DNA of 64,000 nucleotides. It comes from Methylococcaceae bacterium. Its GTDB lineage: Bacteria; Pseudomonadota; Gammaproteobacteria; Methylococcales; Methylomonadaceae. The position numbers and the translations under genes were made by a program. This document shows positions 15,649 to 40,529 of the stretch, piece by piece. Below the pieces are notes generated by a model, which ran no database searches, had not been told where the DNA came from, and worked only from the letters and a program-made list of their open reading frames with translations. Location of the stretch: positions 1 through 64,000 of the forward strand of contig JAIFMS010000145.1 of the NCBI GenBank assembly GCA_020048335.1, written 5' to 3'. Position 1 is the stretch's first letter, and every line of letters starts with the position of its first letter.

Positions 15649-15832
15649 AAGCGTCAACAATCCGTATATTTTTTAAGTAAGAAAGCCATTATCGCAAATT
15701 TAAGCGGGGAAAATAATAGATTTTTTACAAGCCTCACACAGCCATGCTAGGATAAAGAATCAAGGATTTTCCTTGTTTTGACTCCTGTTAAATCAATATT
15801 CTGCCTTTTTTCAAGGCTTGTGTGGACATAAA

Positions 15833-18800
15833 ATGATACGTCTTACTCCTAAAAATGGTTTATTTAAACTCCTAAAAACACCTTATCAAGCCGATTACCT
15901 TTTTTATAGCCCCACCAGCCACACTTTATTTAATTCAATGCCATTTAGCCTTGATAATGAAAAATTGGATTTGATAAGACCTATTCTGGAAAAAACAGCG
16001 TTTCAATTAATTAAACAAAACGGTTTTTCAAGCTTACATTGGGAAAAGAATGCCGAAATAAACACCTATCAACCTGTCATTTCTTATCGCAAGGTAGAAC
16101 AAAATAAAAAAATTGCGACACAACCTACCGAACAACTCTTTAATCAAGCCATTGATTATCAACAAACAGGGCAATTAGCTGAAGCGATTTTATTATATCA
16201 ACAGCTATTAGCCCTTAATCCACAACACAGTGACGCGCTACATTATTATGGATTAGCGGTCGCCGATTATGGCAATCGGCAACAAGGCATTGGATTAATT
16301 AAACAAGCGTTGCTTATTTCACCTAATTATCCTGAAGCCTATAATAATTTAGGCTTTATTTATGAAGATGAAGGGCAATTACAACAAGCCAAAGCGTGTT
16401 ATGAAAAAGCACTACAACTCAAACCCGATTATAGCGATGCGTATTGCAATTTAGGCGGAATTTATCAACATGAAAATAATTTATCGCAAGCAATTGATTG
16501 TTATCATCATGCTTTATTACTTGAGCCACAACATAGTTACAGCCATTATAATTTAGCCACTATTTATCAATTACAATCCAATTATTCGGCGGCTATCGGT
16601 CATTATCAGCAAATTTTAAAAATAAATCCACACCATCAAAACGCGCTTTTTAATTTAGCCTTAGTGTATGCCCAACAAAACAATCTTTCTGATGCAATAA
16701 CCTCTTATCAACAAGTTTTAAAGCTTGACCCGCACCATGCAATGGCGCATTTTAATTTAGCCATTGTCTATTTAACCGCAGGTGATTATTTAAAAGGCTT
16801 TGCTGAATTTGAATGGCGTTGGCAAGTTCGTGCGGCAATTGAACCAAAAAAAATATTTCCACATACACAGGAATGGGAAGGGCAGTTTTTCGGAAATAAA
16901 ACCCTGTTTCTTTATTTTGAACAAGGCGCGGGCGATGCAATTCAATTCATTCGTTATGTGCGAGACATTTCTGAACATTACGGAAAAAGTATTATTGTGC
17001 AATGTCCACGAGTGCTGATTTCTTTATTTGCGACCATTCCTGAAATTACACAACTCATTGCGAGTGAAGACTCTGATTTACCGCCGTTTGATTATTATTT
17101 ATCGCTATTAAGTTTGCCACGGGTTTTAAAAACACGCTTAGAAACGATTCCTTTACAAATTCCTTATTTAAAGGCAACTAAAAAAATAATTATTCCCTCA
17201 ATTAGTAAAAATAAATTCAATATTGGCTTTGTTTGGGCGGGCAATCCTGCCCATGAAAATGATAAAAATCGCTCACTTATTGTTAATTATTTTTCCAGTT
17301 TAGTCTTAATAAAACAAACCCAATTTTACAGCTTGCAATTAGGAGAGCAAGCCCAGCCATTATCTGAATTAAAAGCAGCAAATCCTGTATTAAATTTAGC
17401 CCAATCTATTACTGAATTTGCAGATACCGCAGCAATTATTGCACAAATGGATTTAATTATTTGCGTGGATACCGCTATTGCCCATTTAGCAGGCGCATTA
17501 GGTAAACCTACTTGGATACTTCTGCCATTTGCCCCTGATTGGCGTTGGTTACTTCACAGGGATGATTCGCCTTGGTATCCCAGTGTGCAATTATTTCGCC
17601 AAACCGAAGCAGGTAATTGGCAAACGGTTTTTGCACAATTACAAACCGCATTAGTCAATCACATCGCCACCTGCAATAAAACGTTTATCAATGAAAAACA
17701 GCTATCTTATAATATTAATACCGCGCTGCATTATCATCAAACAGGGCAGTTAGAACAGGCTAAAATAGCGTATCAATCCTTATTGCATCTTAATCCAAAT
17801 GATGCGCAAGCCTTGCATTATTTAGGATTAATTTATCATCAACAAGGTGATAATAAGCAAGCGATTGTTTTATTACAACAAGCCTTAGCGATAGATTCTA
17901 CTCATGCAATCTATCATAATAACTTAGGTATTTCTTATTTAGCCAATAAACAATTTAATCACGCAATCGCTTGTTATGATAACGCCTTGAAACTTGAGCA
18001 AAATTATGCCGCTGCTTATTATAATAAAGGCTATGCTTATCAAGAAAATGCACAATTAGAACAGGCAATCGCTTGTTATCAACAAGCCTTAACAATCAAC
18101 CCTGATTATACAGATTGCTATTATACTTTAGGGCAGATTTATCAAATAAAAAATGAATTTGAACAGGCTATTTCGTATTATAAAAAAACCTTAGAGCTGA
18201 ATCCTAATGCCATTGAAGCTATTTTACAATTAGCTATTATTTCTGATAAACAGCAGCAAGATAATCAAGCCGTAGCTTATTATGAACAGGCATTGAAAAT
18301 AAATTCAGACAGTGCAGAAATCTATTGTAATTTAGGCAATTTTTATGTCAAGAAACAAGATTACGCACAGGCACAAATACATTATGAAAAAGCCTTAGAA
18401 ATTAACCCGAATTATATTGATGCACACTGTAATTTAGGTGTGTTATATACGCAACAACAACAATTTGAACAAGCCATTATTTGTTTTAAAAAAGCATTAG
18501 AAATTGACAATACGCATCTTGACACGTTATGTCATTTAGGTAATGCCTATAATTGTCTCAATGACTCCGCATTGGCATTAATTTATTTAGAAAAAGCCTA
18601 TACGCTAAATAAACAACATCCTTATACGTTGAGTAGTTTAGGTTTGTTTTATAAAACTAAAAATAATCTATCCACCGCTATTTCCTATTATCAAAAAGCA
18701 ATTGCGGTAGACCCTCTTTATGCGAATGCACATTATAATTTATCCCTATCCGCATTATTAAATGGCGATTATGAATTAGGCTGGCAAGAATACGAATGGC

Positions 18801-21800
18801 GATATGTAGCCAATCAACGTTTAACACCTGCACAGCAATTTCCAAATCAACCTTATTGGCAAGGAGAGTTAGCCTCTGACAAAACCTTATTACTTTATAT
18901 GGAACAAGGCTTTGGTGATGCGATACAATTTATTCGTTATCTTGAATTAGTGGCTAACTATGTTGCTAAAATTATTGTCCAATGCCACCCTGCTTTGCAT
19001 CGCCTATTTTCTACACTACCCGAAATTAGCCAATTAATTGATTTTACCCAACCTTTGCCAGCATTTGATTTAGTTTGTCCTTTAATGAGTTTACCCTATT
19101 TATTTAAAACTGATTTAAATACCATTCCGTCTAAATTTCCTTATTTACAGCCTGATAAAAAAAATTCATTCCCCTTACCCATTAATAAAAATAAAATGGC
19201 GATTGGCTTTGTATGGGCTGGCAATTCTAGCCATAAAAATGACAAACAACGTTCTGTTGAAATTCGCTATTTTCAAACTTTTGCTGATTTAACAAACGTA
19301 CAATTTTATAGCTTATATATAGGCGAAAAACAACACGAATTAACCCAGCTTAATTTTGTACATCCTATTATAGAAATAGCTGAAAACCCCATTGACTTTG
19401 CAGAAACAGCCGTGGCTATTTTGCAATTGGATTTAATTATTACGGTTGATACATCGGTTGCCCATTTAGCAGGGGCATTAAATAAAAAAACCTGGGTTTT
19501 ATTACCTTTTTCACCCGATTGGCGGTGGTTATTGGAACGTGACGATTCGCCTTGGTATGCCAGTATGCGTTTATTTCGTCAGTCATTTGCGGGCGATTGG
19601 AATAGTGTCTTTGCGCAATTAAAACAAATTTTATTACAAGAGTTCCCAACTATTACAGCAACACATCAAAATGCCGTTATTAATGAATCGGTTTCTTTTC
19701 AAACAGCGTTAAAATTTCACCAAACTGGTCATTTAAAACAAGCACAAATCGCGTATCAACAACTATTAAATCAACAACCCAATAACAGTGAAGTTTTACA
19801 TTACTTTGGTTTACTGCTGCATGAACAAGGCAATATCAAAGACGGTATTTTAAAAATAGAACAAGCGATTTTAATTAATCAACATTATAAAGAAGCTTAT
19901 AATAATCTAGGCTTGTTATATCATGCCAGTGCGGACATTGAAAAAGCCATCACTTGTTATAAAAAAGCTATCGCCTTAGATAATCATTATGCCGATGCCC
20001 ATTATAATCTAGCTTTAAGTTTATTATTAAATGGCAATTATAAACAGGGCTGGCAAGAATATGAATGGCGTTGGCAATTAAGCAATGCACAAGAAGTGAA
20101 AAAAGAGTTTTCTTTTGCTAAAGCATGGCAGGGTGAAAGCTTAATAGGAAAAAAAATTTTAATTTATGCAGAACAAGGAATGGGGGATGCGATTCAATTC
20201 ATTCGGTATATTGATTTGATTGCAAAACAGGCTGAAAAAATTATTGTGCAATGCCCACGCGCATTAAAACAATTATTCAGTAGTATTCCACAGATTAGTG
20301 AAATTGTAATGCCTGAGGAATTGTTGCCCGTCTTTGATTTTTATAGCCCTTTAATGAGTTTACCTTATCTATTAAACACAGACTTTAATTCCATTCCTGC
20401 TAATACGCCTTATTTAATCGCTCCCGCGTCTGCTTCATTTGCTTTTTTAGTGGACAAAACTAAATTTAATATCGGCTTGGTATGGGCTGGCAATCCAACC
20501 CATAAAAATGATAAAAACCGCTCAATTGATATTTCACAATTTCAATCCATTTTACAATTGGAATCTGTCCAGTTTTATAGCTTGCAAACAGGCAAACAGC
20601 GCGCGGATTTACAAAAAATAAACACTCATCATGCCATCATTGATTTCGGTGAAAAATTTGCCAATTTTGCAGATACAGCGGCTGTTATACAAGAATTAGA
20701 TTTAATTATCTGTGTCGATACCTCAATTGCGCATTTAGCAGGGGCATTAAATAAACCTGTTTGGGTATTATTGCCTTTTGTACCTGATTGGCGATGGCTA
20801 TTAACGACTGAAAAAAGTCCGTGGTATCCGAGTATGCGATTATTTCGCCAACCCGCTATTGCCGATTGGGAAAGTGTTTTTGTCATGCTTAAAAAAGCTG
20901 TGGAAATTGAATCTATCAATTTTAACAAGAGAGAGCCGCAAATAATGGCGCAAATAAAACCGTTATCTGATTTTGATATATCCATTGCAACAGATAGCGC
21001 GTTAAAATACCATCAGGAAGGACAATTAGAGCAAGCCAAACAACTGTATGAGAAAATATTAGCGGTTGATGAAAATAATATTAGTGTTTTGCATTATTTA
21101 GGGTTAATTTTTCATCAGTTAGGCGATTCAAAACAAGCCATTGCGTTGTTAAAAAAGTCTGTTTCCCTTAATCCAGACTATATGCTTGCCTATAATAATT
21201 TAGGCATTGCTTATATGGAAAATAATCAATTGGACGAGGCAATTGATTGTTATGAAAAAGCCTTACAATTAAATCCGCATTACGCCGCTTGTTATTATAA
21301 TATGGGCAGTTGTTATCACCGAAAACAGCAGCTAACACAGGCAATTTCTTGTTATGAGAAAGCTTTATTTTTAAATCCCAATTACCCTGAAGCCCAGTAT
21401 AATTTAGGGATGATTTATCAAGAGCATCAGCCTGAGTTAGCAATTTCGTGTTATGAAAAAGTATTAGCCATTCAACCTCATTATGCAGAAGCGTATCTTA
21501 ATTTAGCGGTTATTTATTTAAAACAAGAAAATTATGTGAGCGCGATTTTATATTATGAAAAAGTTTTGGCGATTTTTCCTGATTATCCAGAAGCACAATG
21601 TGGTTTGGGGAATGTTTATTTAAAACAAAAGGATTTTTTAAAAGCAACAGTGTGTTATGAAAAATGTTTACAATTGCAAGCAAATAATCCCGATGCGTTA
21701 TGTGGTTTGGGAACGGTTTATTTGGAACAAAATCAGTTTGATTTAGCGATTGGCTATTATAAAAAAACTTTGCTTCTTAATCCTAATTATGCAGAAGCAC

Positions 21801-22936
21801 AGTGTAATTTGGGCATTGTTTATGATAAACAAAATAAATTAGAAAAAGCGTTATTCTGCTATGAAAAAACATTACATCTCGATAAAAATCATGAAATAGC
21901 GTGTTGTGAAATAGCCAATATTTATTTAAAACAACATAAAGTAGAAGCGGCTTTAAGCCATTATGAAAAAGCTTTGAGAATCAATTCAAACTATGCAATA
22001 GCGCATTATAATTTTGCTTTTGCGTTGCTTTTAACAGGCGATTATCAACGCGGCTGGCAAGAATATGAATGGCGTTGGTTGGCAAATCAAAAAATGCCCC
22101 CTGCTACAAAGTTTCCTACTGCGCAACAATGGCAAGGCGAGTCGTTAAATAATAAAACCATTTTCCTTTATACTGAACAGGGCTTAGGGGATGCGATTCA
22201 ATTTATTCGTTATGCTGAATTAGTTTCTAAATTAGGGGCTAAAGTGATTGTGCAATGCCAGCCTGCGTTAAAGAATTTGTTTTTACCGCTTAAATCTATT
22301 CATAAAATTATAACAACAAATGAAACACTGCCTGCTTTTGATGTGTTTTCACCCTTAATGAGTTTGCCGCATATTTTTAATACAACGGTGCAAACAATTC
22401 CCACATATTTTCCTTATTTAGACGGCAATAAAAAATTGAGTTTTCCTGTTTTTTTAGATAAAGAAAAACTAAATATTGGCTTTGTGTGGGCAGGCAATCC
22501 TTTGCATGGTAATGATAAACAACGCTCTATTGAGATAACACATTTTCAAAGATTAACCCAATTAACAGATGTACAGTTTTATAGCTTATTGGTAGGGGAT
22601 AGAGCCAACGATTTAAAAAATATTACGTTTGCAAATCCTGTGATTGATATAGGCAAAAAAGTCACTGATTTTTCTGATACGGCAACGGTTATTGAGAAAT
22701 TGGATTTAATTATTTGTGTCGATACTTCCGTTGCCCATTTAGCAGGGGCATTAAATAAACCGACTTGGCTATTATTGCCTTTTGCACCCGATTGGCGTTG
22801 GTTATTAGAACGGGATGATTCGCCTTGGTATCCGAGTTTGAAATTATTTAGACAAACCCAACGCGGTGATTGGACAGGCGTTTTTCAGGCTGTTACGAAA
22901 GAATTAGAGCGACTATTGCAACAAAAGTCGCAATAA
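15833..22936 (+). CDS. Giant protein of four TPR-glycosyltransferase (GT9-like) units
   Basis: A 2,367-residue cytosolic protein containing four consecutive units. Each has a TPR block followed by a GT9/heptosyltransferase-like domain. Each catalytic-type domain repeats the same landmarks: WQEYEWRW-like entry, EQGxGDAIQFIRY, GFVWAGNPxHxNDKxRS, and DLIICVDTSVAHLAGALNKPTW followed by LLPFAPDWRWLL. The WAGN motifs fall near 17235, 19215, 20485 and 22485. TPR blocks hold about 6, 9, 3 and 11 repeats respectively. Such TPR-GT9 proteins usually carry one unit and are thought to glycosylate proteins or surface polymers; a four-fold fusion is unusual. The ATG at 15833 is preferred over an in-frame TTG at 15818. 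Acceptor and sugar are unknown. Confidence 0.88.
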   Translation: MIRLTPKNGLFKLLKTPYQADYLFYSPTSHTLFNSMPFSLDNEKLDLIRPILEKTAFQLIKQNGFSSLHWEKNAEINTYQPVISYRKVEQNKKIATQPTEQLFNQAIDYQQTGQLAEAILLYQQLLALNPQHSDALHYYGLAVADYGNRQQGIGLIKQALLISPNYPEAYNNLGFIYEDEGQLQQAKACYEKALQLKPDYSDAYCNLGGIYQHENNLSQAIDCYHHALLLEPQHSYSHYNLATIYQLQSNYSAAIGHYQQILKINPHHQNALFNLALVYAQQNNLSDAITSYQQVLKLDPHHAMAHFNLAIVYLTAGDYLKGFAEFEWRWQVRAAIEPKKIFPHTQEWEGQFFGNKTLFLYFEQGAGDAIQFIRYVRDISEHYGKSIIVQCPRVLISLFATIPEITQLIASEDSDLPPFDYYLSLLSLPRVLKTRLETIPLQIPYLKATKKIIIPSISKNKFNIGFVWAGNPAHENDKNRSLIVNYFSSLVLIKQTQFYSLQLGEQAQPLSELKAANPVLNLAQSITEFADTAAIIAQMDLIICVDTAIAHLAGALGKPTWILLPFAPDWRWLLHRDDSPWYPSVQLFRQTEAGNWQTVFAQLQTALVNHIATCNKTFINEKQLSYNINTALHYHQTGQLEQAKIAYQSLLHLNPNDAQALHYLGLIYHQQGDNKQAIVLLQQALAIDSTHAIYHNNLGISYLANKQFNHAIACYDNALKLEQNYAAAYYNKGYAYQENAQLEQAIACYQQALTINPDYTDCYYTLGQIYQIKNEFEQAISYYKKTLELNPNAIEAILQLAIISDKQQQDNQAVAYYEQALKINSDSAEIYCNLGNFYVKKQDYAQAQIHYEKALEINPNYIDAHCNLGVLYTQQQQFEQAIICFKKALEIDNTHLDTLCHLGNAYNCLNDSALALIYLEKAYTLNKQHPYTLSSLGLFYKTKNNLSTAISYYQKAIAVDPLYANAHYNLSLSALLNGDYELGWQEYEWRYVANQRLTPAQQFPNQPYWQGELASDKTLLLYMEQGFGDAIQFIRYLELVANYVAKIIVQCHPALHRLFSTLPEISQLIDFTQPLPAFDLVCPLMSLPYLFKTDLNTIPSKFPYLQPDKKNSFPLPINKNKMAIGFVWAGNSSHKNDKQRSVEIRYFQTFADLTNVQFYSLYIGEKQHELTQLNFVHPIIEIAENPIDFAETAVAILQLDLIITVDTSVAHLAGALNKKTWVLLPFSPDWRWLLERDDSPWYASMRLFRQSFAGDWNSVFAQLKQILLQEFPTITATHQNAVINESVSFQTALKFHQTGHLKQAQIAYQQLLNQQPNNSEVLHYFGLLLHEQGNIKDGILKIEQAILINQHYKEAYNNLGLLYHASADIEKAITCYKKAIALDNHYADAHYNLALSLLLNGNYKQGWQEYEWRWQLSNAQEVKKEFSFAKAWQGESLIGKKILIYAEQGMGDAIQFIRYIDLIAKQAEKIIVQCPRALKQLFSSIPQISEIVMPEELLPVFDFYSPLMSLPYLLNTDFNSIPANTPYLIAPASASFAFLVDKTKFNIGLVWAGNPTHKNDKNRSIDISQFQSILQLESVQFYSLQTGKQRADLQKINTHHAIIDFGEKFANFADTAAVIQELDLIICVDTSIAHLAGALNKPVWVLLPFVPDWRWLLTTEKSPWYPSMRLFRQPAIADWESVFVMLKKAVEIESINFNKREPQIMAQIKPLSDFDISIATDSALKYHQEGQLEQAKQLYEKILAVDENNISVLHYLGLIFHQLGDSKQAIALLKKSVSLNPDYMLAYNNLGIAYMENNQLDEAIDCYEKALQLNPHYAACYYNMGSCYHRKQQLTQAISCYEKALFLNPNYPEAQYNLGMIYQEHQPELAISCYEKVLAIQPHYAEAYLNLAVIYLKQENYVSAILYYEKVLAIFPDYPEAQCGLGNVYLKQKDFLKATVCYEKCLQLQANNPDALCGLGTVYLEQNQFDLAIGYYKKTLLLNPNYAEAQCNLGIVYDKQNKLEKALFCYEKTLHLDKNHEIACCEIANIYLKQHKVEAALSHYEKALRINSNYAIAHYNFAFALLLTGDYQRGWQEYEWRWLANQKMPPATKFPTAQQWQGESLNNKTIFLYTEQGLGDAIQFIRYAELVSKLGAKVIVQCQPALKNLFLPLKSIHKIITTNETLPAFDVFSPLMSLPHIFNTTVQTIPTYFPYLDGNKKLSFPVFLDKEKLNIGFVWAGNPLHGNDKQRSIEITHFQRLTQLTDVQFYSLLVGDRANDLKNITFANPVIDIGKKVTDFSDTATVIEKLDLIICVDTSVAHLAGALNKPTWLLLPFAPDWRWLLERDDSPWYPSLKLFRQTQRGDWTGVFQAVTKELERLLQQKSQ

Positions 22937-34660: not shown

Positions 34661-35256
34661 GCAAAATAAAGTTAGTGATGATTGATAATTACGATTCGTT
34701 CACTTACAACTTAGTGCAGTATTTTGGCGAACTTGGCGCGGACGTGATAGTCAAGCGCAATGACGAGGTGAGTATTGCCGATATTGAAGCGTTGCAACCG
34801 AATAAAATCGTGATTTCGCCTGGCCCTTGTACGCCTAAAGAGGCAGGCATTTCGGTGGAATGCTTGCTGCATTTTGCGGGAAAGTTGCCGATTTTGGGCG
34901 TGTGTTTGGGGCATCAAAGCATCGGTTATGCGTTTGGTGGCAATGTTATTCATGCAAAACACGTCATGCACGGGAAAGTTTCGCCTGTGTATCATCAAAA
35001 TGTCGGTGTTTTTCATGGTTTAAATAATCCATTTACCGCCACGCGCTATCATTCACTGGTGATTGAGCAAGCGACCTTGCCTGATTGTTTAGAGGTCACG
35101 GCGTGGACGCAAGATGAAAACGGCGGCATTGACGAAATTATGGGCGTGCGGCATAAAACGTTGGCTATTGAGGGGGTGCAGTTTCATCCTGAGTCGATTT
35201 TGACTGAGCATGGGCATGATTTGTTGCGGAATTTTTTGAAAAAGCCTGATGAATAA
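34657..35256 (+). CDS. trpG: Anthranilate synthase component II (glutamine amidotransferase)
   Basis: TrpG/PabA supplies ammonia from glutamine to TrpE. The 199-residue product is a class I amidotransferase with the nucleophile in [15 protein letters not shown] and the His-Glu pair in [14 protein letters not shown]. It may be shared with p-aminobenzoate synthesis. trpD would normally follow, but the next gene is an unrelated HEPN-motif protein overlapping the trpG end by eight bases, so the trp operon has been interrupted here. Confidence 0.95.
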
Positions 35257-36526
35257 GCAATCTCGTATTATTGATAATTCGTCAATGAAAGATTTGTTAG
35301 GTCAACTTCGGTTTTTCAGTGCTTTTGAAACTTTTTATCGAGCAATTCCTTTTTCTAAAAAACTATTTCCAAAGTATGACTCCATTTTTAATAACTTTTC
35401 TGAAATAAAAAAACAATCAACCATTATTTTTATTCCAGATAAATTTAACGATATTTTTTCTTCTCAAGGTTGGATAGCTTATGACTCTATGAATCTTGAA
35501 GTAATGAGTCAAGCGATTGAGCTTTATGAAGCAAATGGAATGGAACAAGCTGAGTTGTTTTTAGCATTGTTTTATGATGAGGATAAAATTAAATGGGAAC
35601 TTAGTCGATTCAAAGGTCACGTTGAATTTAGAAAACGAATTAGGCTTGCTAATTTAGCTAAAGAAGATTATTTGGCAGAAAGGTATCATGCTTGCATTCC
35701 ATTATTGCTGAGTTTACTCGATGGATTGGTTAATGATATTTCAAAACAAGTTGGTTTTTTTGCTGAAAATACTAATTTGACGGCGTGGGATTGCATTGCA
35801 GGGCATGAAACTGGACTTCAAACTCTTACCTGTCTTATGAGTATTGGCAGAAATAAAACAAATGAGGAAAAAATTACAATTCCATATCGGAATGGTATTC
35901 TTCACGGTCGAGAATTGGAGTTCGATAATAAAATTGTAGCCGCAAAGTGTTGGGCTGCTTTGTTTGCAACTAAAGATTGGGCAATTGCTATTTCAAAAGC
36001 GAAAAATAATCCAAAACCTGAACAGCAAATAAGTTGGAAAGAGTCACTAAAAAAATTGCTTGAAAATGAGCGGCAAAAAAAATTACTGGACGAATGGAAA
36101 CCACGTTCTAGCAACGACCGTTTATATTTACCCTATAGTGGAGTTTCCGAACAGCTTCCTGATAATACACCCGAAAAAGCGGTTGCTAAATTTATTGAAA
36201 ACTGGACTAGCCAACGTTACGGGCTTTTAGCAGATGATTTAGCTTATTTCACCAATTCCCCTAAAGGCAAAAAAGCAGGGATGGCAAAAAGCGATTTTTC
36301 AAGAAATATTCCACTTTCATATAAAATTTTGGACGTTGAAGACCTTGCGCCAGCTATTTCTCATGTAACTGTAGAATTGATATTTTCAAATGCAATTACA
36401 AAAAAAGCATCCGTGCGAATGATTTATCAAGATTCAAGTAATAATGCGTTAGTGCGTTCTGATAACTCAGGAAGCTGGAAAGTTTTTCAAAATTCTTTAA
36501 GTGAAATTATTTATACATATCTGTAG
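35249..36526 (+). CDS. Uncharacterised HEPN-motif protein
   Basis: I recognise no named family for this 425-residue protein. The middle contains [11 protein letters not shown], an R214-N-x3-H219 motif as in HEPN RNases. A Lys-rich helix follows (about 255-285). The C-terminal third (about 300-425) resembles a small NTF2-like alpha+beta domain, judging by [19 protein letters not shown]. The DNA is markedly AT-rich compared with trpE/trpG, which it overlaps by eight bases, so it looks acquired. A diverged copy of bases 36287-36360 of this gene is found at 40456-40529, on the far side of the tubulin genes. Confidence 0.7.
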
Positions 36527-36875: not shown

Positions 36876-37235
36876 ATGAAAAAAATAGGTTTAAGTGCAG
36901 CGGTAATTCTTTCTTTAGCATCTGGTTCGGCATTTGCAGCTGGGGGATTTGCCCTAAGTTGTACCAATATTGCGATGTCAGGTACGGCTTTAACCGCTAA
37001 ATGTAAAAATGCCGCAGGGACGGTTGTTGATGCAAAGCTTGAACTGGATAGTCGTTTTTATATAAATGGCACTACGATGATGCTCATGCAAGGCTCACCT
37101 ACTTTCGCCAATAGCAAATGTACAAGTTTAGTAATCACTGGTTCAACGTTAGCTGCGACCTGCAATCGTACTGTGGCTAAATACGATTTGAATAAGGCTA
37201 TTGCCAATATTGATGGCGTGTTGAAATTTCAATAA
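36876..37235 (+). CDS. Secreted cyanovirin-N homology (CVNH) lectin
   Basis: A signal peptide (MKKIGLSAAVILSLASGSAFA) leads into a ~99-residue mature protein. It has two CVNH half-repeats: FALSCTNIAMSGTALTAKCK and the related CTSLVITGSTLAATCNR. Four cysteines match the two disulfides of cyanovirin-N, and the ending NIDGVLKF is the family's usual close. CVNH proteins bind high-mannose-type glycans. The ATG at 36876 is chosen because AAAAAGG and a signal peptide follow it naturally. It is followed by an attC-like element, so it could be an integron-type gene cassette. Confidence 0.85.
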   Translation: MKKIGLSAAVILSLASGSAFAAGGFALSCTNIAMSGTALTAKCKNAAGTVVDAKLELDSRFYINGTTMMLMQGSPTFANSKCTSLVITGSTLAATCNRTVAKYDLNKAIANIDGVLKFQ

Positions 37236-37323: not shown

Positions 37324-37385
37324 ATCTAATTCAACGTTCCAGTGGAGCTTCGCTATCGTTCAGCCCGCTGAACGTTGCGTTAGGC
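37324..37385 (+). other. attC-like recombination site (integron cassette end)
   Basis: ATCTAAT (37324-37330) is followed by TCAACGTTC. At the other end GAACGTTGC leads into GTTAGGC (37379-37385). The outer arms fit the RYYYAAC/GTTRRRY cores with one mismatch, and CAACGTTC/GAACGTTG is a perfect inner stem. At ~62 bp, size and layout match an attC site. No integrase gene is in the window. Confidence 0.5.
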
Positions 37386-37496
37386 AAGGCAGGCGAGCTG
37401 GGTGTTTCGGCTCTTTGGGTTGATGGGGGTAGCTTCAGAATAAACGTGGTCTGTCCCCTATTTTAACGCCCTATTTTCATAAAAAAGGAAATTACA

Positions 37497-38813
37497 ATGC
37501 GAGAAATCATAACGATTTGTGTCGGAGGGGCAGGTGTCCGTATAGGCGCAAAATTCTGGGAGCTATTGTGTTTAGAGCATGGCATTAACCCTGATGGGCA
37601 ACCGAACCCAGACTTTTCAAATAATTCCGGTGACTCCTGGAGAAGCTTTTTTAATGAGATGGTGTCTGGCAGATTAGTTCCACGTACTATCTTTGTGGAT
37701 TTAGAACCCACTGCTGTAGATAAGATACCTAAAGACTTGTTTCATCCAGACTCTTTCATCTCTGGCAATCAGGGGGCATGTGGTAATTTTGCTCGCGGTT
37801 ACTATACTGCCGGAAAAGAAATCATTGATCCGGTTTTAGACAAGATCATAAGGCTCACTGAGGCCTGTGACAGTTTTCAGGGCTTTCTCATCATAAACTC
37901 CCTAGGTGGCGGAACCGGTAGCGGCTTCACTGCACTATTGATGGAACGTCTGACTGTTGAGTATGGCAAGAAAAGCAAAATACAGTTTGCGATCTATCCT
38001 GCTCCCCAACTGAGTACCGCAATCACAGAAACCTACAACGCCGTACTCTCGACTCACTACACGAATGAGCATAGTGATTGCTGTTTCCTGGTGGATAATG
38101 GTGCTATCTACGACATCGCACAAAGGAGCCTCGGCATCGCCAGTCCTTCCTATGCAGACCTCAACTGCCTGATAGCCCATGCAATTGCTGATGTGACTGT
38201 CAGCCTGAGATTTCAGGGAGACCTCAATATGGATCTCAACGAGTTCCAAACCAACTTGGTGCCTTTCCCTAGAATGCATTTTCCAGTGATCAGTCATGCT
38301 CCTATTGTCAGTCGAGAGAACGCCACTCACTCAGAACTGAATACCCTAGAAATCACAAATGCTGTATTTGACCCAGAAAATCAACTTGTCAAGTGCAAGC
38401 TACAGACCGGAAAATATATGTCCTGCTGTCTGCTTTATCGCGGAGACGTTACCCCTAGAGATATCAATGCTGCGATCGCACAGATCAAATCTAGGCATGA
38501 TATTCCATTTGTCGATTGGTGTCCGACGGGCTTCAAAGTGGCGATTATCAATCATCCTCAGGTATCTTTCCCTGATGATCTGATAGCTCCTGCTAAACGA
38601 TCTGTCACGATGTTAAGCAATACCACTGCTACAGTCAGTCTATTCACTCATCTTGCGCATAAGTTTGACCTCATGTACGCAAAACGGGCTTTTGTTCATT
38701 GGTATGTTGGTGAAGGCATGGAAGAAGGAGAATTTCAAGAAGCCAGGGAAGACTTGGCAAGTTTAATCGGGGAATATGAGGCAGTCGCCGTTGATTCTAG
38801 CAATAATGAATGA
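37497..38813 (+). CDS. Alpha-tubulin homologue (eukaryote-like)
   Basis: A 438-residue, intronless tubulin. The GTP-binding loop [10 protein letters not shown] is at 136-144. [45 protein letters not shown] and [18 protein letters not shown] track eukaryotic alpha-tubulin almost block for block. The T7/H8 loop [10 protein letters not shown] keeps the catalytic Glu (E249, alpha E254). The S9-S10 segment has the alpha-specific insertion ([15 protein letters not shown]). It lacks the acidic tail and terminal Tyr. AAGGA lies eight bases before the ATG, so it is set up for bacterial translation. It presumably forms a heterodimer with the beta homologue 80 bases downstream. FtsZ is excluded by the full-length tubulin C-terminal domain. 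Confidence 0.96.
38472..38479. other. HIP1 octamer inside the alpha-tubulin gene
   Basis: GCGATCGC, the highly iterated palindrome that is greatly over-represented in many cyanobacterial genomes. Confidence 0.7.
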
Positions 38814-38893
38814 AGTGACCGCTATCTTTAACGCTCTCTACAGCGTTAAAAGGTTTAGCAACGTTGTTTTAATAGAAAATAGAAGGTGTGAAA

Positions 38894-40210
38894 ATGAATG
38901 AAATCGTATGTATCCATGTGGGACAATGTGGCAACCAGATTGGTGTCAAGTTTTGGGAAGCGATCTCCGACGAGCATGGCATCGATCCGACCGGGATTTA
39001 TCGTGGAAACAATGATCTCCAGATCGAACATATTGATGTTTTTTACAACGAGGGGTCGGGCGGCAGGTATATTCCCAGAGCGGTTTTTGTGGACTTGGAT
39101 CCTCATACGATGGACGCTGTTCGGAAAGAACCCGTTGGAGGAATCTTTCGCCCAGACAATTTTGTTTTTGGCCAATCAGATACCACCGGTAGCAACTGGG
39201 CCAAGGGCCACTACACCGAAGGGGCTGAGTTGATAGACGCCGTTATGGATGTTGTCCGTCAAGAGGTAGAACGCTGTGAAAATTTGCAGGGTTTTATGCT
39301 CTTTCATTCCCTCGGTGGCGGTACAGGATCGGGGATGGGCACTCTTATTCTCACCAAAATCAAGGAGGAGTATCCCGATAGGATGCTCGCAACCGTTTCT
39401 GTCTTTCCTTCGACCAAGATGAGTGATGCGGTGGTGGAGCCTTACAATGCCGTGCTTGGAATCAACCAACTGCTCGAAACTGCGGACTTGACGTTTTGTT
39501 TCGATAACGAGGCACTGTACGACATTTGCGTTCCTACTCTCAATCTCACCCAGCCGACCTACGGAGACCTCAACCATCTTATTTGTGCGACGATAGCTGG
39601 TATTACCGCACCTTTAAGATTCTCAAGTCAGGGATCGCGGAGCACCCTGAGGGATCTGGCGACTAGTCTAATCCCCTTCTCCCGTCTGCACTTCCTGATG
39701 GCAGCGTTTGCACCTTTGACCGGCAGAGACTCTCAACAGCACAACGTTCCCGAACTCACTCAGCAGTTGTTTGATGCCAAAAATATGATGACCTGTGAGC
39801 CTCGTCACGGTAGGTATTTGGCTGTCCAAGTCCTATTTCGTGGACCCCTGTCAAGACAGGAAGTAAATGATGCAATGCTCACTAGTCAAACCAAAAACTC
39901 AGCCTATTTTGTGGAATGGATTCCGGATAATGTGAAAACCACTGTCTTTGATATTCCACCGCGTACCCTAAATATGTCCGCAACATTACTGGGTAATAGC
40001 ACGGCAATCCGGGAGCTATTCGAGAGAATTGGTGAGCAGTTTACTATTATGTTTCGGCGCAAAGCCTTTCTCCATTGGTACACTGGCGAGGGCATGGACG
40101 AAATAGAATTCGCTCAAGCTGAGTCAGCTATCAATGATCTCGTCACTGAGTACCAGAACTACGAAGATGCAACTGCTGACGATGCGGGAGATTGTGATGA
40201 AGGGATGTAA
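38894..40210 (+). CDS. Beta-tubulin homologue (eukaryote-like)
   Basis: A 438-residue, intronless tubulin. It has [20 protein letters not shown] (residues 9-28), [12 protein letters not shown] (139-150), [60 protein letters not shown] and [20 protein letters not shown], all beta-type. The S9-S10 loop is short as in beta. Differences from eukaryotic beta include Asp at position 254 instead of Lys, a T7 loop reading [10 protein letters not shown], and a three-residue shortening near the M-loop (SQQHNVPEL). The tail is short and acidic ([14 protein letters not shown]). AGAAGG sits seven bases before the chosen ATG; an in-frame GTG lies at 38888. It is probably one operon with the alpha homologue. 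Confidence 0.96.
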
Positions 40211-40455
40211 CTGCCTAAGTACATAGTTCTGCACCTTAACTATCTGATTGTTGCGATGTTTACTAATATGATTGCCGATTTTGTGGGTTAAGTGCGATCG
40301 CCTAATCATCACAACTCAAAATACTGGCGATCGCCTTCAGGATATAGATTGTTGCTGCGATCACCTAAAAATCAACCCGTAGATACAAGACTGGATTGAA
40401 TCCTAGTTTGTTAATGATAAAAAACCTCAGTTGCAACGAAACCGAAAAATTATTT
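40211..40455. other. Intergenic tail of the tubulin island with HIP1 sites
   Basis: No gene is supported. Two perfect HIP1 octamers (40294-40301, 40327-40334) and a one-mismatch copy (GCGATCAC, 40357-40364) fall within 71 bases. The texture resembles cyanobacterial intergenic DNA and differs from the rest of the window. Confidence 0.7.
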
Positions 40456-40529
40456 AACAGCAAGTTTTCAAAGAAATTACCGTTTTCATATAAAGTTTTA
40501 GAAGTTAAAGACCTTGCGCCGGCTATTTC
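40456..40529 (+). pseudogene. Diverged fragment of the HEPN-motif gene
   Basis: These bases align end to end with 36287-36360 of the HEPN-motif gene. Shared landmarks are TTTTCATATAAA, GACCTTGCGCC and GGCTATTTC/AGCTATTTC. Translated, FSKKLPFSYKVLEVKDLAPA matches [20 protein letters not shown]. Its end overlaps the last codons of the convergent tetR gene, so it marks the right-hand edge of the inserted region. Confidence 0.85.

Follow-up and report, generated by a model that had tools for sequence, protein, structure and literature searches.

Tandem tubulin genes in bacteria are known from Prosthecobacter (Verrucomicrobia), which carries the BtubA/BtubB pair, and heterodimer-forming tubulins are likewise encoded in tandem by the AtubA/AtubB genes of Asgard archaea. 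BtubAB and a lokiarchaeal AtubAB have been reported to form mini-microtubules (PMC13394414). The prokaryotic tubulins covered by surveys of 2023 and 2026 comprise only BtubAB of Verrucomicrobia, the Odin and Atub proteins, divergent artubulins and one doubtful Bathyarchaeia sequence (PMC9871819, PMC13394414). In the literature searched, no prokaryotic tubulins with a true division into alpha and beta were reported. A precedent for the move of eukaryotic cytoskeletal genes into a cyanobacterium, as proposed below, is provided by Microcystis aeruginosa PCC 7806, although the genes located on its genomic island encode actin and profilin, not tubulin, and these proteins reportedly make up a shell inside the cell (PMC3254629).

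The tubulin genes described here are located in a 64,000-nucleotide stretch of DNA, hereafter the window, belonging to a draft genome of 2.73 Mb (204 contigs, 90.5% complete, 0.46% contaminated). Since this genome contains a pmoC-pmoA-pmoB operon, the host is a methanotrophic gammaproteobacterium, probably a member of the order Methylococcales. The first-pass annotation had placed a full-length, eukaryote-like alpha and beta pair with bacterial ribosome-binding sites at 37497-40210, bounded by bacterial genes on both flanks, and each of these statements is borne out. Both frames are full length and uninterrupted, and the Pfam Tubulin and Tubulin_C domains match each protein over its full length, with E values ranging from 1e-31 to 1e-65. 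The alpha protein is 61% identical to solved eukaryotic alpha-tubulins, the beta protein 69% identical to solved eukaryotic beta-tubulins, and alpha and beta of the window share 37% identity. Within the literature searched, pairs of this kind were known from eukaryotes only; a few Verrucomicrobia and Asgard archaea have tubulins, but these are more distant. Coordinates are given in Table 1.

Table 1. Features of the window and tubulin gene pairs of Polyangia
Feature	Sequence	Coordinates	Strand	Remarks
Left boundary zone, attC-like hairpin to alpha start	window	37384..37496	.	exact left end inferred
Alpha-tubulin gene	window	37497..38813	+	intact, 438 aa
Island of normal GATC density, 21 sites	window	37827..40362	.	
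HIP1 octamer GCGATCGC inside alpha gene	window	38472..38479	.	
Alpha-beta intergenic gap with beta ribosome-binding site	window	38814..38887	+	74 bp
Beta-tubulin gene	window	38888..40210	+	intact, 438-440 aa, likely start ATG 38894
HIP1-containing intergenic repeat (GCGATCGCCTA...ACTCA...GGCGATCGCCTTCAGGA.ATAGATTGTTG)	window	40294..40374	+	
74-bp remnant	window	40456..40529	+	83% identical to 36287-36360
Polyangia beta-alpha pair	L006	2418-5074		
Polyangia beta-alpha pair	L007	8004-10825		
Polyangia beta-alpha pair	L008	7995-10621		
Polyangia beta-alpha pair	L016	1447-3956		
Polyangia beta-alpha pair	L042	970-3429		

The alpha ATG is preceded by a Shine-Dalgarno-like AAAGGA (AAAAAAGGA, within the left boundary zone), and GAAGG is found just 5' of ATG 38894. 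This ATG is a better beta start than the upstream GTG 38888, because the resulting MNEIV... aligns with the MREIV of eukaryotic beta-tubulins. The 74-bp spacing of the two genes suggests that they are co-transcribed. Promoter-like sites at the pair are no more numerous than expected by chance.

The pair has in common with eukaryotic tubulins the domain organization, a 14-residue stretch in beta, the catalytic Glu in the T7 loop of alpha and the 8-residue insert between strands S9 and S10 of alpha; the corresponding loop is short in the window beta, which ends in a DATAD tail. Alignments show that the nucleotide-binding loops are largely conserved, with a Gly in place of Gln11 in the alpha site. 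In contrast to eukaryotic tubulins, the genes form a bacterial operon, alpha lacks both K40 and an acidic EEY/Tyr tail (its C-terminus is VAVDSSNNE), the beta M-loop is 3 residues shorter, and an Asp replaces Lys254 in the beta T7 loop. K40 and the acidic, tyrosine-ending alpha tail also vary among eukaryotes and are not decisive for membership. The replacement of the T7 Lys by Asp makes the pair a variant rather than an ordinary eukaryotic-type member. Thus the alpha/beta specialisation and the DATAD tail described at first stand; the missing alpha tail and K40, as well as the foreign nature of the surrounding DNA, had been overlooked. The structure prediction that had been proposed as a check added nothing, as the AlphaFold models, built from four-sequence alignments, are of low confidence (pLDDT 37 and 49) and give no support.

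Trees were inferred with IQ-TREE from 7-8 eukaryotes per paralogue (animals, yeast for alpha, Chlamydomonas, Tetrahymena, Toxoplasma for beta, and kinetoplastids) together with BtubA/B, Asgard AtubA/B and three Polyangia pairs. Query sequences of BtubA, BtubB and kinetoplastid tubulins were checked against solved chains. Asgard and Btub chains excepted, the solved chains are presumed to come from the organisms usually named for them, and the yeast beta sequence (TUB2), used in the beta AU, concatenated, opisthokont-column and residue alignments, is presumably correct. The window alpha adjoins all eukaryotic alphas (support 91/92) and the window beta all eukaryotic betas (98/94), while BtubAB and AtubAB form a separate group (95/92). 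AU tests reject the union of the window beta with BtubA and AtubA and of the window alpha with BtubB and AtubB (p 5e-77 and 3e-6, respectively), and a single clade of both window proteins is rejected as well. Judged by their sequences, the two proteins are true alpha and beta orthologues.

The acquisition is thus separate from that of BtubAB, as had been proposed, and the phylogeny suggested as a check sets the pair apart from Btub/Atub. The FtsZ profile TIGR00065 scores 21.5 bits, far below its cut-off of 295, and the FtsZ/tubulin-family gene of the host itself is located elsewhere (contig C36). BtubA/BtubB resemble the window pair in their tandem arrangement and in carrying an acidic T7 residue in both subunits (Glu in BtubA and BtubB; Glu in alpha and Asp in beta of the window). 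In contrast, neither Btub subunit has an S9-S10 insert, BtubA/BtubB group with the Asgard proteins, and the Btub operon includes a kinesin-light-chain-like gene (bklc) that has no recognised counterpart beside the window pair, where the flanking ORFs encode a CVNH lectin and a TetR-like protein. AtubA/AtubB, prokaryotic tubulins that are encoded in tandem like the window pair and form heterodimers (PMC13394414), also lack the alpha-type insert and belong to that other clade.

The tubulin genes reside in a segment of foreign DNA that spans approximately 37.4-40.45 kb and differs in composition from the rest of the contig. For instance, the host contig contains 23 GATC sites in 61 kb, where 181 would be expected, whereas the segment contains 21 (21.6 expected); at the host rate, 1.1 sites would be expected in 2.98 kb (P ~1e-19). 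GATC is absent from 32.07-37.83 kb and from 40.36-42.24 kb. Similarly, CCGG, which the host avoids, occurs 10 times in the segment (8.7 expected). The HIP1 octamer, a hallmark of cyanobacterial DNA, occurs three times in the 2.73-Mb genome, and all three copies, including those at 40294 and 40327, fall within the segment, corresponding to a density of ~1000 per Mb (3 in ~3 kb). Most cyanobacteria carry HIP1 at 300-2700 per Mb (PMC4390886).

The HIP1-containing repeat found 3' of beta is 81-82% identical (E 5e-11) to repeats that are multicopy on two Pseudanabaena galeata plasmids, the only matches among 72,556 plasmid records. Codon usage points in the same direction. Pseudanabaena plasmid genes account for the tubulins better than host genes by 47 (alpha) and 33 (beta) log units, in contrast to trpE, tetR and acrA, whose usage favours the host. 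HIP1, the plasmid repeat, codon usage and the lack of GATC avoidance make a Pseudanabaena-like cyanobacterium the most likely source of a segment that apparently has yet to adapt to its host, and since its GATC sites are still unpurged, its arrival appears to have been recent. The earlier picture, in which a proteobacterium took up a near-modern heterodimer, is correct as to a separate acquisition; it is too simple in that the route seems to have led through such a cyanobacterium and in that pairs are also found in Polyangia.

GATC, GGCC and CCGG are each present in the host DNA, over window positions 1-64000, at ~0.13-0.20 of expectation. Such avoidance suggests that several restriction systems acted in the past, and it is a handy marker of recent imports into this genome.

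The neighbours on the left are a gene of unknown family (35249-36526), a gene at 36876-37235 and an attC-like imperfect hairpin (37326-37385) that ends in GCGTTAGGC just upstream of the segment. The second of these genes, the one directly upstream of the segment, codes for a short secreted polypeptide that contains a cyanovirin-N homology (CVNH) domain. The draft genome contains no integron integrase, so the hairpin is no proof of a cassette. The right edge of the segment falls between 40375 and 40456, where the 74-bp remnant begins; this remnant duplicates the 3' part of the host gene at 35249-36526, hinting at an older rearrangement, and is followed by tetR and then acrAB. Relatives retain tetR-acrAB and have other genes at the left; because this flank is non-syntenic, an empty insertion site is not demonstrable in them.

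The main risk to the proposed history is the chromosomal join, which is known from a single draft genome. A cyanobacterial tubulin fragment may have been wrongly joined during assembly or binning, in which case the true carrier of the operon would be a cyanobacterium sampled together with the methanotroph. The composition of the segment, wholly unlike that of its flanks, the fragmented state of the assembly and the missing proof of the join by synteny, the left flank of relatives being different, would all fit such a chimera. However, host sequence free of Ns adjoins both joins, a chimera would require two false joins in the space of 3 kb, a host-gene remnant lies on the far side, and the two boundaries share no repeat of at least 9 bp. 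We consider this explanation quite unlikely. Eukaryotic contamination of the bin is far less probable still. The proteins are of eukaryotic type, and an actual case of such contamination was encountered, namely an interrupted animal-type beta-tubulin gene in a Gammaproteobacteria MAG among public genomes (L009, 2227-3448). That gene is near-identical to animal beta-tubulin and has an interrupted frame, whereas the window pair shows just 61-69% identity, is intronless, has bacterial ribosome-binding sites, lies on a bacterial contig and is accompanied by intergenic DNA carrying HIP1.

Tandem tubulin pairs were also identified in 5/318 genomes of the class Polyangia, and pairs of eukaryotic type therefore recur in bacteria; no prior report of them was found in the literature searched. 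Like the window pair, they are bacterial proteins of alpha and beta type, but their gene order is beta-alpha, unlike the alpha-beta order of the window. Proteins of L006, L007 and L008 are 44-50% (beta) and 36-39% (alpha) identical to those of the window; their alphas feature the S9-S10 insert and have lost the catalytic Glu. In the alignment, this mark of alpha is shared by the alphas of the window and of Polyangia; none of the betas has it, nor do Btub and Atub. The L016 and L042 pairs are highly divergent (~22-29% identity to eukaryotic tubulin). Comparison of two Polyangia pairs gave dN/dS values of 0.08-0.12 (YN00) and 0.44-0.49 (NG86), which indicates purifying selection.

Two views of the ultimate source stand, given the AU tests and the opisthokont-like states of alpha. 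In the first, an opisthokont donor on the animal side passed the genes to the cyanobacterium, where they evolved fast, and their deep placement reflects long-branch attraction. The shortest tree paths and the highest identities lead to animal sequences, and the window alpha has the opisthokont state in 12/17 columns that separate opisthokonts from bikonts, along with an animal GFT..LLMERL stretch. Moreover, AGA/AGG, CTC and CAG codons, typical of neither host nor Pseudanabaena, are in excess in the tubulins. On the other hand, the AU test of alpha alone rejects a position in metazoa (p 0.003), and some opisthokont states may be ancestral, as the Polyangia proteins agree with them at several columns. 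This view has close to an even chance.

In the second view, the pair branched off on the eukaryotic stem, prior to the last common ancestor of extant eukaryotes, so that a stem-lineage tubulin was kept in bacteria. When the trees are rooted with Polyangia, both window proteins fall outside all sampled crown sequences, the Polyangia proteins lying further out. For alpha, most nested positions are rejected by AU tests, including those inside metazoa, yeast, kinetoplastids, the ciliate and the green alga (p <=0.008); for beta, several are. In the concatenated test, ciliate/green-alga, kinetoplastid and bikont positions are rejected as well, but a position next to animals is retained (p 0.47). The residues shared with opisthokonts also speak against a stem origin, as does the fact that without an outgroup the window pair falls on the animal/fungal side; with so few eukaryotes per paralogue, long-branch attraction may have occurred. 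A stem origin is somewhat doubtful, and an animal-side source with fast evolution is slightly favoured over it. Two firmer claims, a nesting of the pair within animals and a certain pre-eukaryotic age, were considered and dropped. Rather unlikely is the broader idea that bacterial true alpha/beta pairs (those of Polyangia, the Pseudanabaena-like cyanobacterium and the methanotroph) left the eukaryotic line before the crown, still build microtubule-like filaments and spread between phyla as small operons.

The pair is absent from 60 relatives, two of which belong to the same genus, and the host is its only carrier among 369 sampled genomes of the class and 398 sampled genomes of the phylum. A scan of the contigs of close-relative genomes with the beta protein alone gave no match; the beta alignment retrieved the Polyangia proteins and the animal contaminant L009. 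No relative is encoded in viral contigs, on plasmids or by phages. Occurrence in one genome only, a recent arrival evident from unameliorated GATC and a promoter-like signal no higher than chance would be compatible with a non-functional passenger, intact merely because it came recently and silent in the methanotroph. Against this, the frames are open, ribosome-binding sites are present and residues of the nucleotide site are conserved; function may also reside in the donor. This alternative has a substantial chance, though it falls short of being the likelier outcome.

On balance, we regard it as likely that a tubulin operon encoding an alpha/beta heterodimer was recently transferred to the methanotroph from a Pseudanabaena-like cyanobacterium. 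The operon would ultimately derive from the eukaryotic alpha/beta lineage, crown or stem. During a stay in a HIP1-rich cyanobacterium of this kind, it would have acquired ribosome-binding sites of bacterial type, HIP repeats between its genes and a partly cyanobacterial codon usage, and it would then have entered the methanotroph chromosome as a ~3-kb piece.

As far as the genes allow a prediction, the pair probably encodes a GTP-dependent heterodimer filament. Alpha and beta would be co-translated and form a GTP-bound heterodimer, and heterodimers may stack into protofilaments in which alpha and beta alternate. As in eukaryotes, the alpha Glu would be the residue that catalyses GTP hydrolysis at the inter-dimer site. 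Because alpha keeps this Glu and the eukaryotic T7 Lys of beta is replaced by Asp, GTP may be hydrolysed at both interfaces; the intra-dimer site may do so through the beta Asp, and BtubA/B, with Glu at this position, would be expected to behave alike. Since the beta M-loop is short, the alpha tail is missing and no partner genes are apparent next to the pair, the filaments are predicted to nucleate by themselves and to make few or unusual lateral contacts. The likeliest product would be protofilaments or few-stranded tubules (mini-microtubules) assembled without partners, rather than 13-protofilament microtubules.

If two-gene tubulins do work without chaperones, gamma-tubulin and associated proteins, they would test the minimum that a heterodimer needs to form a microtubule. 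The window pair could also help to date the divergence of alpha and beta. Tubulin would join actin and profilin among the eukaryotic cytoskeletal parts acquired by cyanobacteria, here apparently handed on to another phylum. Even if the join were false, the segment would still indicate a cyanobacterium with an alpha/beta-tubulin operon.

Two further observations concern the host genome. Its pmoA (L040, 1302-2016) is split into two overlapping frames, so that the gene is either broken or affected by a frameshift introduced in sequencing or assembly. Upstream in the window, positions 15818-22936 encode a 2372-aa TPR-repeat protein with glycosyltransferase-9-like matches.
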